Below are positions 15,634 to 36,557 of a DNA stretch of 64,000 nucleotides, piece after piece (within the stretch, counting starts at the first letter, position 1; the number at the start of each line of letters is the position of its first letter). This DNA comes from a virus: positions 1 through 64,000 of IMG/VR virus record IMGVR_UViG_3300028196_000007; one strand, 5' to 3'. Both the position numbers and the translations under genes were made by a program. Under the pieces are notes generated by a model. That model was not told the origin of the DNA, searched no databases, and saw only the letters and a program-made list of their open reading frames with translations.

Positions 15634-15634
<1 letters not shown>
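15374..15634 (-). CDS. Small zinc-ribbon-like protein, 86 aa
   Basis: CEKCECQTF at about 32-40 and KCTDCGHINEGFL near 67-79 give two CxxC knuckles spaced as in a zinc ribbon. A disordered Gln/Asn-rich N-terminus precedes them. Its start overlaps the groEL stop by one base. Function unknown; metal binding is inferred from the Cys pairs. Confidence 0.6.
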
Positions 15635-17540
<1,906 letters not shown>

Positions 17541-31587: not shown

Positions 31588-32022
31588 TTATTTTATTTCT
31601 ATAAACTTGGCTTTTGCCGTTTCGAATTTTGGAACTGTGATTTGTAATAAACCATTTTTCATTTCTGCATCCAGACTTGTTAAGTCAAAGTCCGGACTGA
31701 CCTTCCATCCCATATCAAAACTACGTCTTGCAATTCCTCTATGGATATAAGTTGGTGCTTCTTTATTTGATGGGTTTGATTCGACAGTAGGTTTTTTGTA
31801 GGTAACCTTTAAAGTGTTTCCTTCTACTAAAACGTGTATGTCGTCTTTTTCCAATCCAACACATGCGATATCAAAGCATAGTACTTCGTTGTCAACAAAT
31901 ACGTCAACCGGATAATCAGGCTTTGTATCCATTGCTGAACCAAATCCTACATTTGTGTCGAAAAAATTTTTGAATAATAAATCGGTAGAGAAGAGTCTCT
32001 CACCTAATAAGTGTCTTGTCAT
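31588..32022 (-). CDS. Small heat-shock protein Hsp20
   Basis: A 144-residue alpha-crystallin-domain chaperone. PVDVFVDNEVLCFDIACVG begins the domain, and the sHSP signatures follow: VEGNTLKVTYKK, the IHRGIARRSFDM strand, and GLLQITVPKFETAK (the GxLxITxP motif). An N-terminal FFDTNVGFGS segment matches Hsp20 proteins. AAGGAG precedes the ATG by 7 nt. Exact 18-bp inverted repeats lie on both sides of the gene, so it may be a distinct expression or transfer unit. Hsp20 would hold unfolded phage proteins for GroEL. Confidence 0.9.
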   Translation of the reverse strand: MTRHLLGERLFSTDLLFKNFFDTNVGFGSAMDTKPDYPVDVFVDNEVLCFDIACVGLEKDDIHVLVEGNTLKVTYKKPTVESNPSNKEAPTYIHRGIARRSFDMGWKVSPDFDLTSLDAEMKNGLLQITVPKFETAKAKFIEIK

Positions 32023-33323: not shown

Positions 33324-33367
33324 ATTTTATTCTTTTATTCTTTTTAAATTAATTTAATATAATAATA

Positions 33368-33587
33368 TCTATGCGGTTGGATTCGAACCAACAGTTTTTC
33401 AAGTACAAATTTGTAGGCTAAAAACTTAAAAAAAGCCTTATAGTTCCTGTACTCTTGAGGAACTCGGGGTCGTTGTTAGCGCCACCATAAACCTTAGTAG
33501 CTACAAGTAGCTTATAAAGGTTGCGTATCTCCAAGCTAATATATTCATGTTTTATATACATGTCAATTAGCATTCCGCCACGCATAG
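33368..33587 (-). ncRNA. Structured tRNA-like RNA, about 220 nt
   Basis: Acceptor arms CTATGCG (33587-33581) and CGCATAG (33375-33369) pair over 7 bp with an A discriminator, and the T arm is GTTGG-TTCGAAT-CCAAC. After the 5' arm comes TGGCGGAAT, as in class II tRNA-Leu, with a 3-bp D stem GCG/CGC (33578-33576 with 33525-33523). The D loop holds an extra hairpin GCTAAT/ATTAGC; an anticodon-like stem AACCTT/AAGGTT contains AGCTAC/GTAGCT; further stems are AGTTCCT/AGGAACT and AGTTTTT/AAAAACT. CCA is not encoded. Too short for an ordinary group I intron plus tRNA, and lacks the G3-U70 pair of tmRNA. Confidence 0.6.
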
Positions 33588-33593
33588 TTATTA

Positions 33594-34721
33594 TTATCCT
33601 ATTGGCACATCATCATTTCCGATTTCAATATCATCGATACCTAAATCATCTGTTTTGTATGCCATAATCAATGTTTCGCAAATCTTGTTATATATTCTCT
33701 CTTTCCTTTCGGGGTCAGAAAGTACTAACTTTTCAAAGTCTTTTGATAAAAACTTTATTTCTTTGCCTGTTACATCATCAGTATAAGTATACCAAGAACC
33801 GCCTTGTTTAATAAGGCTGTAGTCTTTTAACACCTGAAGCCAACCACCAAAGTCATCGATGCCTGATTCGAAATAAATATTAAATTCTGCTTCTCGTAAA
33901 GGTGGTCCCATTCTGTTCTTGACAACCTTTGCCTTTGTTTTAATACCTATAACTTGTTCTTTACCGTTAACCTTAGCTTTAATCTGTCCTGCTGCTTTCA
34001 ATCTTAATCTACAACTAGCATGAAACTGGATTGCTTTACCGCCTGATGTAGTATATTTGTCACCAAACATAACACCTAGCTTTTCTCTTAGCTGATTTGT
34101 AAATATCAAACATACTCTTTCTCTACCAATTAACTGAGTAATTTTTCTCATACCTTTTGACAACACAATTGCTTTTGACGTAGCCCAACCTTCTTTGTCA
34201 TAGTCTTGAGCCTGTTCAATTTTTGTTGTTGCTGCAGCTACTGAGTCTACTGCAATTGATACCAATCTATTTTTGTCTGATTCTTTTACTTTTAAGATTA
34301 TATTTTCAATAACCTCAAATATATCTTCTACAGCTTCGAGTTGAATATACAACATCTTAGAAATGTCCATTCCTATAGCAGTTAAAAACTCCTCATTCAT
34401 GGCATTTTCTGTATCTATGTATACTGCAAGGCCTCCTTGCTTTTGCGTGTTAGCGAGTAGATGAGCTGCAATGAGTGATTTACCAGAAGCTTCCATTCCA
34501 GTAATTTCTGTAATTCTACCTACCGGTAAACCACCATTAGCTCTATTTGAAATAGCTAGGTCAAGTAAAGATGAACCTGTACTTATCCATTCAGTTAAGT
34601 CAGTTGGTGTTTCATCTGCACCATCTAGAAAGTATGCAACTTTCATTCCTTTAAACTGTTTGTTTAATGAGTCAGCTAATACGCTGGCTAATTCATCTCG
34701 TTTTGTCTTATCCTTTGCCAT
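33594..34721 (-). CDS. uvsX: RecA-like recombinase UvsX
   Basis: A 375-residue strand-exchange protein. Walker A GMEASGKS at 75-82, the VYIDTENAMNEEFL acidic strand, RLVSIAVDSVAAATT Walker B region and FTNQLREKLGVMFGDKYTTSGG, the L2-type loop with Gln. It coats ssDNA with gp32's help and drives recombination-dependent replication and repair. Directly upstream lies gp32 (12 nt apart). Confidence 0.95.
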   Translation of the reverse strand: MAKDKTKRDELASVLADSLNKQFKGMKVAYFLDGADETPTDLTEWISTGSSLLDLAISNRANGGLPVGRITEITGMEASGKSLIAAHLLANTQKQGGLAVYIDTENAMNEEFLTAIGMDISKMLYIQLEAVEDIFEVIENIILKVKESDKNRLVSIAVDSVAAATTKIEQAQDYDKEGWATSKAIVLSKGMRKITQLIGRERVCLIFTNQLREKLGVMFGDKYTTSGGKAIQFHASCRLRLKAAGQIKAKVNGKEQVIGIKTKAKVVKNRMGPPLREAEFNIYFESGIDDFGGWLQVLKDYSLIKQGGSWYTYTDDVTGKEIKFLSKDFEKLVLSDPERKERIYNKICETLIMAYKTDDLGIDDIEIGNDDVPIG

Positions 34722-35517: not shown

Positions 35518-35545
35518 TAATATAACAAAAATATTCCACATTATA
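35518..35545 (-). promoter_or_regulatory. TTATATTA-type phage promoter before gp32
   Basis: Sense strand TATAATGTGGAATATTTTTGTTATATTA, a family copy with TGTGGAA for TNTCGGA, about 31 nt before the gp32 ATG and overlapping the uvsE stop. Confidence 0.55.
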
Positions 35546-36557
35546 AAACTTTATGTAAACTATTTTTGTATTTTTTTAAGTAGCCTATTACAGCTATTTC
35601 CTTATGCTTTGCTTCGACAACCACATCGATGTCTAGACCATAGTCGTTGATTTCGTCTACAACTAAGTCTGAATGTGCTTGTACTTTTATTTTTTGAGAT
35701 TCCTTGTGTAGCTTTTCCATAGTAGGATATTCGGATAACTTTTCCATTGGTATATTACTGTTTTTAAGAAAAGTTTCAACTATGAGTCCTTGTTCTCGCC
35801 TACGTGATTCGGAATAATGAGTACAAGGTTTTACATCACCCCATGTAGATGCTGCTAGTTTTAGTGCTTGTTCTTCGGTAAGACCACCTGTACAGAATTT
35901 GTGGTGGTGATAATCGAATACAATAGGTATACCTGTATTTTGGAATACACCTGTATATAAATCTTGAACTGAATACATGCTAGCTTTGTCGTCGTTTTCC
36001 ACTGTTAACCTGGATTTTGCTGATTCTGATAATTTGTCGAAATTATTGCAAAACCTAACAAGAGCTGTTTCCTTGTTGCCATAAGCACCGCCAACATGTA
36101 TATTGATTTTTGCCATACGTGTTCGTGGTAAACCCATAAGGTCCATAATTTGAGCAGACTTATTAAGTTCGTTCCAAGCACCTTCTACTGTTTTTTGAGT
36201 TGGTGAAGCTAGCACTGTAAACTGGCCTGGGTGGAATGACAACCTTTGGCCATAACCTTGAGCCAAGTCGCCAGCTTGCTTTAATAGCACACATAATTCA
36301 TCGTAGCCAGGCAGGTCTGTAAATTCATATTCAGACATCCACGGATATATGTCACTAGACATACGGAATACTTTTATTCCATTGTCCTCATTCCATTGAA
36401 TAATCTTGATTAAGTCTTTGGTATTTGCTATACACAATTCTGACACATAGTCTAGACCTTTTGCATCGAATGTTCGCCTAATCATTGAGCGGCCTGTGTA
36501 TATACCTTGTTTTCGTAAGTGCATGTTTATACATGCGTATCCTAATTGCTTTGCCAT
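35541..36557 (-). CDS. uvdE: UV damage endonuclease UvsE (UvdE)
   Basis: 338 residues with the UvdE TIM-barrel motifs: LGYACINMHLR at the start, RMSSDIYPWMSEY, LSFHPGQFTVLASP, INIHVGGAYG, LTVENDDKASMY, VFDYHHHKFC and KVQAHSDLVVDE. These supply the three-metal site. It nicks 5' to UV photoproducts, so the phage can start repair of its own DNA, useful in sunlit water. The ATG lies about 6 nt after a strong TTATATTA promoter element. Confidence 0.95.
   Translation of the reverse strand: MAKQLGYACINMHLRKQGIYTGRSMIRRTFDAKGLDYVSELCIANTKDLIKIIQWNEDNGIKVFRMSSDIYPWMSEYEFTDLPGYDELCVLLKQAGDLAQGYGQRLSFHPGQFTVLASPTQKTVEGAWNELNKSAQIMDLMGLPRTRMAKINIHVGGAYGNKETALVRFCNNFDKLSESAKSRLTVENDDKASMYSVQDLYTGVFQNTGIPIVFDYHHHKFCTGGLTEEQALKLAASTWGDVKPCTHYSESRRREQGLIVETFLKNSNIPMEKLSEYPTMEKLHKESQKIKVQAHSDLVVDEINDYGLDIDVVVEAKHKEIAVIGYLKKYKNSLHKVL

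Follow-up and report, generated by a model that had tools for sequence, protein, structure and literature searches.

What is the tRNA-shaped, oversized element that sits directly behind the recA gene of an uncultured virus? The window, the whole 64,000-nt stretch of DNA that was analyzed, comes from a linear IMG/VR virus record of 86 kb whose gene set is T4-like (tail sheath, major head protein, RecA, gp32-like protein, DnaB-type helicase, 5'-3' exonuclease, GroEL, and HSP20), and the carriers of the element are uncultured T4-like viruses of bacteria. The element occupies positions 33369-33587 of the minus strand (219 nt, or 220 nt with tRNA position 73 at 33368), beginning 6 nt downstream of the recA stop codon (33594-33596) and sharing the orientation of that gene (33594-34721, minus strand; Pfam RecA, 198 bits). 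A preliminary description, which gave no strand, had reported a 7-bp acceptor stem, an A discriminator, the segment UGGCGGAAU, a D stem, a T arm, and extra hairpins, all of which were found at 33368-33587 on the minus strand. The same genome encodes the chaperones GroEL (15634-17256, minus strand) and HSP20 (31588-32022, minus strand), and a gene for the UV damage endonuclease UvdE (35541-36557, minus strand) lies beside recA and the gp32-like gene.

Read from 5' to 3', the RNA comprises the acceptor, U8 and G9, D stem, A14 and A15, a D-loop hairpin, G18 and G19, D stem, a variable hairpin, hairpins PC, PA, and PB, the partner strands of two pseudoknots (PK1 and PK2), T arm, and acceptor (these features are all on the minus strand). 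The 5' strand of the acceptor, CUAUGCG (33581-33587), pairs with CGCAUAG (33369-33375; 33368-33375 with A73), with 93% of the alignment cells paired and double changes in six of the seven pairs. U8, G9, the D stem 5' strand GCG, and A14 A15 make up the tRNA-Leu-like UGGCGGAAU at 33572-33580, and UUGG, containing G18 and G19, lies with the D stem 3' strand CGC at 33523-33534. The D stem was 100% paired and occurs among members as GCG, GUG, AUG, or GCA, with G18 and G19 invariant in 26 sequences. The T arm, GUUGG-UUCGAAU-CCAAC (33376-33392), was also 100% paired, and its loop sequence UUCGA was invariant in 29 sequences. Across those 29, the bases U8, A14, A15, U48, U54, U55, C56, G57, and A58 never change and the remainder varies widely; the identity of the elbow bases (U8, A14, A15, U48, and UUCGA) in every sequence indicates that a normal tRNA elbow is under selection. 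For the divergent member L035, the D arm is letter for letter that of tRNA-Leu, split by a hairpin (GTGGTGGAAT...TGGTAGACACA), and the clade L024-L027 has a bulged acceptor with 3-4 unpaired nt. The body of the RNA is thus that of a class II tRNA-Leu, with acceptor, D stem, T arm, and elbow bases kept, and we consider descent from tRNA-Leu very probable.

The D loop contains a hairpin (33535-33571) whose stems covary and whose A-rich apical loop, UAUAUAAAA (33550-33558), is similar in most members; a promoter-like TTGACA-17-TATATT inside it was taken as chance because the second hexamer is not conserved in relatives. A 5-bp anticodon stem with a 7-nt loop is absent. Its place is held by the variable hairpin (33490-33522), which has no anticodon loop, which was paired in 57-76% of cells in the MAFFT alignment, a low value that arises because lengths differ between members, and which in the shortest members (L009, L013, L019, and L024-L027) has a loop of ~4 nt. 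Hairpin PC (33466-33486), reading GAGG-CGG-UARCG-CCG-A-CCUC in relatives, was 71.5% paired with double changes in six of seven pairs. Hairpin PA (GUUCCU/AGGAAC, 33443-33463) was 100% paired with double changes in all six pairs, and its loop carries an invariant A, A, and G together with the PK1 5' strand GAGUAC (33449-33454; 100% paired), for which GUACUU (33401-33406) is the covarying partner. The pairing types of PK1 were GAGUAC/GUACUU, GAUUAC/GUAAUC, GACUAU/AUAGUU, GUCUAC/GUAGAU, and GCAARC/GUUUGY. Hairpin PB (GGC/GCC, 33416-33437; 85-88% paired) likewise carries in its loop the PK2 5' strand AGUUUUU (33420-33426; 99% paired), which pairs with AAAAACU (33393-33399), a strand that abuts the 5' side of the T stem and whose last U is the invariant position 48; the types seen were AGUUUUU/AAAAACU, AGUACUU/AAGUACU, AGUGCU/AGCACU, and AGUGUUU/AAACACU. 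The two pseudoknots cross, in that the PA and PB loops both pair with the strand just 5' of the T stem, so the variable region has grown into a two-hairpin domain with its loops in interleaved pseudoknots before the T stem. These pseudoknots, and an outer helix formed by the acceptor flanks, go beyond what had been described before. The many G-U pairs (the first PK1 pair, for example, is G-U in 23 of 26) favor the minus strand, the sense of recA, as the one that acts as RNA.

Folded as a single sequence, the element beats 199 of 200 shuffles (z -2.7), which is suggestive alone; the reality of a structured RNA is settled by covariation among homologues. Homologues were present in about 38 IMG/VR contigs, from which 29 distinct full sequences of 193-264 nt were examined. 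A RecA protein query returned 80 related viral loci, approximately 28 of them with a clear homologue directly behind recA, and four further loci with lower RecA identity also had one in that place. A search pattern built on the invariant bases, AAGTNNTN{12,42}AANNACTGNNGGTTCGAAYCC, matched 39 contigs, of which 38 are family members, including three divergent members linked to a DNA ligase gene (L340-L342) and L167, also ligase-linked. A structure with 64 proposed pairs was tested on a MAFFT alignment of 26 sequences (A1). In it, 87.6% of cells were paired in comparison to 71% when shuffled and 38-44% when the partners were slid, the last comparison being inflated, and the double changes not, since the structure was partly derived from the same sequences. 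Compensatory double changes occurred in 49 of the 64 pairs, the covariation score was 0.429 against 0.162 ± 0.008 in shuffles, and none of 500 shuffles reached A1 on any of five measures. RNAalifold by itself recovered the acceptor, D stem, PA hairpin, PK2 helix, and T stem from this alignment. A second alignment (A2), confined to the 3' core and comprising 23 sequences with three more divergent, ligase-linked rows added, was 98.1% paired, again unmatched by any of 500 shuffles. With a covariance model (R1), full members scored E values of 1e-18 to 1e-23 per record; R1 found no second full copy and no further full member in the other records of recA or ligase relatives that were searched, and L329 and L188 are not claimed as members because their R1 alignments break a pseudoknot helix. 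We conclude that the RNA family exists, which we regard as practically certain.

The family was previously uncatalogued. No Rfam 15 family reached its gathering score anywhere in the 64-kb window, and at E ≤ 10 the matches consisted of a 22-nt T-arm fragment of the tRNA model RF00005 (13.8 bits versus the 29 required) and chance-level matches. ARAGORN predicted no tRNA or tmRNA in the window and none in the remaining 22 kb of the record. Searches of isolate phages with blastn gave short matches only, mostly to T arms of ordinary tRNAs, and two strict patterns gave no matches in GTDB genomes, which hints at absence from cellular genomes. The matches to a looser pattern, AAAGAKTAC...GGTAMTYRAA, were almost all chance, and no description of such an RNA was found in the open-access literature. 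The preliminary description had held that the element is no normal tRNA, group I intron, or tmRNA, and this is borne out by the lack of an ARAGORN gene and of an Rfam match at gathering score. It had also named a clear Rfam hit, or homologues that lose acceptor and T-arm pairing, as grounds for giving up its view; no such hit was obtained, and the homologues keep both pairings (93% and 100%). Its proposal of a processed or regulatory tRNA mimic is a possible reading of the sequence.

With bacterial tRNA-Leu of class II the RNA has in common the 7-bp acceptor, U8, the 3-bp D stem, A14/A15, G18G19, the T arm, U48, and the D-arm sequence. It differs in its length of 193-264 nt, its D-loop hairpin, its lack of an anticodon arm, its free discriminator base, and an ~100-nt pseudoknotted domain in place of the variable arm. 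The tRNA-Leu discriminator A73 is not kept among the 29 sequences (position 73 is A in 8, U in 12, C in 5, and G in 4), and none of the 29 encodes CCA, which together suggest that charging as tRNA-Leu is not under selection. With neither the discriminator base nor the first acceptor pair conserved, aminoacylation as a leucine tRNA appears unlikely from these sequences.

Does the RNA act as part of an mRNA or apart from it? The main rival to a free RNA is a role in cis, in which the element would fold at the 3' end of the mRNA of recA (or ligase), block 3' exonucleases or separate recA from downstream genes, and never be released. Tight packing and the outer helix argue for a link between the RNA and the mRNA. 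The gap between the recA stop codon and the acceptor is 5-10 nt in all 25 recA-linked members, and the 5' strand of the outer helix (33588-33597, minus strand; partner at about 33357-33367) takes in the stop codon, as in the examples AUAAUAAUA/UAUUAUUAU, AUAACAACAA/UUGUUGUUAU, UAGUAAUUUG/CAAAUUACUA, and AACAGUUC/GAACUGUU from recA-linked members. The acceptor flanks pair at a mean of -6.2 kcal/mol with their own partners and -4.0 kcal/mol with swapped ones (0 of 500 permutations). Furthermore, recA relatives without the element bear other, unrelated-looking structured RNAs in this position, one kind of them ending in a terminator-like hairpin. Against a cis role, the outer helix, seen in many recA-linked members, is missing or weak in L007/L008, L011/L012, L032, L035, L036, and L044 (a tRNA-Glu follows the RNA directly in L032, L035, and L036 and lies nearby in L044), and a second group of carriers (L167 and L340-L342) has the element behind a DNA ligase gene, on the same strand as the gene. 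Occurrence behind this unrelated gene argues for an RNA that forms a unit of its own, independent of any particular gene. A plain stabilizer, moreover, needs neither all of the tRNA elbow bases nor two pseudoknots of conserved geometry. On balance we judge a purely cis-acting element to be rather unlikely, while taking it seriously.

It is well established that tRNA-Leu can contain a group I intron, and the acceptor, D arm, and T arm here are those of tRNA-Leu, so we considered a transcript that matures by splicing or trimming into an ordinary leucine tRNA, for instance by way of a degenerate group I intron. PA and PK1 resemble P3 and P7, and the loop AAAGAYUAC is reminiscent of the R motif of group I introns, but a P4-P6 is missing and Rfam gave no match; neither group I nor other intron models matched at E ≤ 10 for the window element or at E ≤ 5 for the divergent L341 and L035. 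No subset of the RNA yields an anticodon stem-loop, the insertions fall in three distinct places, the added helices pair with the stretch of the tRNA itself that precedes the T stem, and the base at position 73 is not conserved, all of which make a splicing product very improbable. An element acting as DNA or in priming, such as an origin transcript beside replication and recombination genes, would suit the neighboring recA, gp32-like, helicase, exonuclease, and ligase genes, but is just as improbable given that selection falls on RNA pairing, G-U pairs included, and on tRNA tertiary bases that a DNA site does not need.

The least tenable alternative is a divergent phage tmRNA. The RNA shares with tmRNA (RF00023) and permuted tmRNA (RF04321) the joining of tRNA-like ends to pseudoknots, and these or related phages also encode tmRNAs: permuted tmRNA genes exceeding the RF04321 gathering score are present at L370 876-1171 (G008:C1), L369 1055-1397 (G031:C1), G017:C1:72517-72677, and G024:C1:135409-135568, two of them with the tags GEQVEMAMAA and GEHVEMAMAA, and none exceeded it in G000. 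Unlike tmRNA, this RNA has a real D stem, no Rfam match over the gathering score, and no alanine identity (G3-U70 and A73), given that acceptor pair 3-70 and base 73 vary. The segment GCUAACAACGAC resembled the start of a tag, but no tag reading frame is kept, the lengths of 193-264 nt differing by non-multiples of 3 and the frames being interrupted, and G008 and G031 carry both this RNA and a separate permuted tmRNA. Lacking CCA, anticodon, and tag frame, and accompanied by a separate permuted tmRNA in two carriers, the RNA is neither a decoder nor the tmRNA.

We favor, as the reasonably probable explanation, a structured noncoding RNA of phages that uses a class II tRNA body of leucine type, is excised by the host, and has a pseudoknot domain working in trans. 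The RNA would be transcribed together with the recA or ligase gene. The elbow is a contact site on tRNA for RNase P, RNase Z, and LeuRS (PMC4810234), and from its recognition by the first two we infer that host enzymes would cut the RNA out of the transcript of recA or ligase, with RNase P making the 5' end and either RNase Z or exonucleases making the 3' end, to leave a stable RNA of ~200-260 nt. This product would not decode and probably would not be charged as tRNA-Leu; its working part would be the pseudoknot domain, which would most likely bind a host protein, the ribosome, or a tRNA-handling factor during infection. Two points weigh against excision: the flank pairing of many recA-linked members would hinder RNase P, so that the RNA might stay in the mRNA, and the bulged acceptor of L024-L027 is not a normal RNase P substrate. 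No co-occurring partner gene that names a target was found, TROVE included; the TROVE (Ro60/Rsr) gene was present in 0 of 13 records, which are fragments, with a control genome positive.

The RNA follows the plan of tRNA-like noncoding RNAs and, by those membership tests that could be run, appears to fall outside the known groups. Bacterial Y RNA (YrlA) is a noncoding RNA that mimics the tRNA elbow; here, by contrast, the RNA's own ends are the acceptor ends. The tRNA-like structures of plant viruses also combine tRNA mimicry with pseudoknots, except that in them the pseudoknot builds the acceptor, whereas this RNA has a plain helical acceptor and carries its pseudoknots in the variable region. 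MALAT1/mascRNA-type elements have in common with it a tRNA-like block on the 3' side of a transcript, through which long noncoding RNAs recruit tRNA end-processing enzymes (PMC4810234), but the present RNA belongs to bacterial viruses, has a large pseudoknot domain, and its processing is only predicted.

Other RNAs were also observed. L338, found in a phage that carries Mu-like genes, keeps the tRNA-Leu D arm uninterrupted, shares the PB/PK2 layout (AGUGGUU/AACCACU), lacks an anticodon arm, and scored 34.7 bits (E 4e-6) with R1; the minimum-energy fold of L338 itself departs from this in the D arm, so its place as a distant relative is tentative. Further tRNA-Leu-like RNAs of 119-159 nt (L102 +1218, L126 +7680, L128 +5083, L149 - strand 2689, L158 +1894, L173 +2096, L188 +13202, and L329 +3375) have a 7-bp acceptor, a GTGGCGGAA D arm, a T arm, no recognizable anticodon arm, and, in most, a D-loop hairpin. 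For most of them this insert belonged to the search pattern; the acceptor and T arm did not. They were unrecognized by ARAGORN where checked, and the pseudoknots of the main family are not clearly shared. Behind recA in L069, L070, L076, L077, L079, and L081 there is a second structured RNA, TTCTAC..AAGGCCACCTTCTCGTGGTGTAGAATGTTAAGGTTAAAA..TTTAACC..GAGCCTTTT, whose pairing looks pseudoknotted and covarying and which has no Rfam match, and in L066, L068, L078, and L080 a third, GCTGAWACCAATGT..ACTAGAAA..CTRATAGC, is followed by a terminator-like hairpin. The 3' side of recA seems to be a hotspot for structured RNAs.

An uncatalogued family with unusually strong structural conservation thus joins the short list of tRNA-like noncoding RNAs, and it is to our knowledge the first to keep the whole tRNA body while interleaved pseudoknots replace the codon-reading end. 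The covariance model, together with the known carriers, opens it to direct testing. We suggest, tentatively, that it may belong to a novel kind of phage RNA, a tRNA turned scaffold, which the host would make and stabilize like any tRNA and whose former anticodon and variable regions would form a pseudoknotted domain acting in trans during infection, be it on ribosomes, on tRNA enzymes, or on a host defense factor. Were this so, the tRNA-Leu-like RNAs of other phages that lack an anticodon arm would be parallel cases. If the RNA proves to be excised and stable, these phages would be reusing the tRNA fold to carry other RNA functions and would gain from the host both end-processing and stability.
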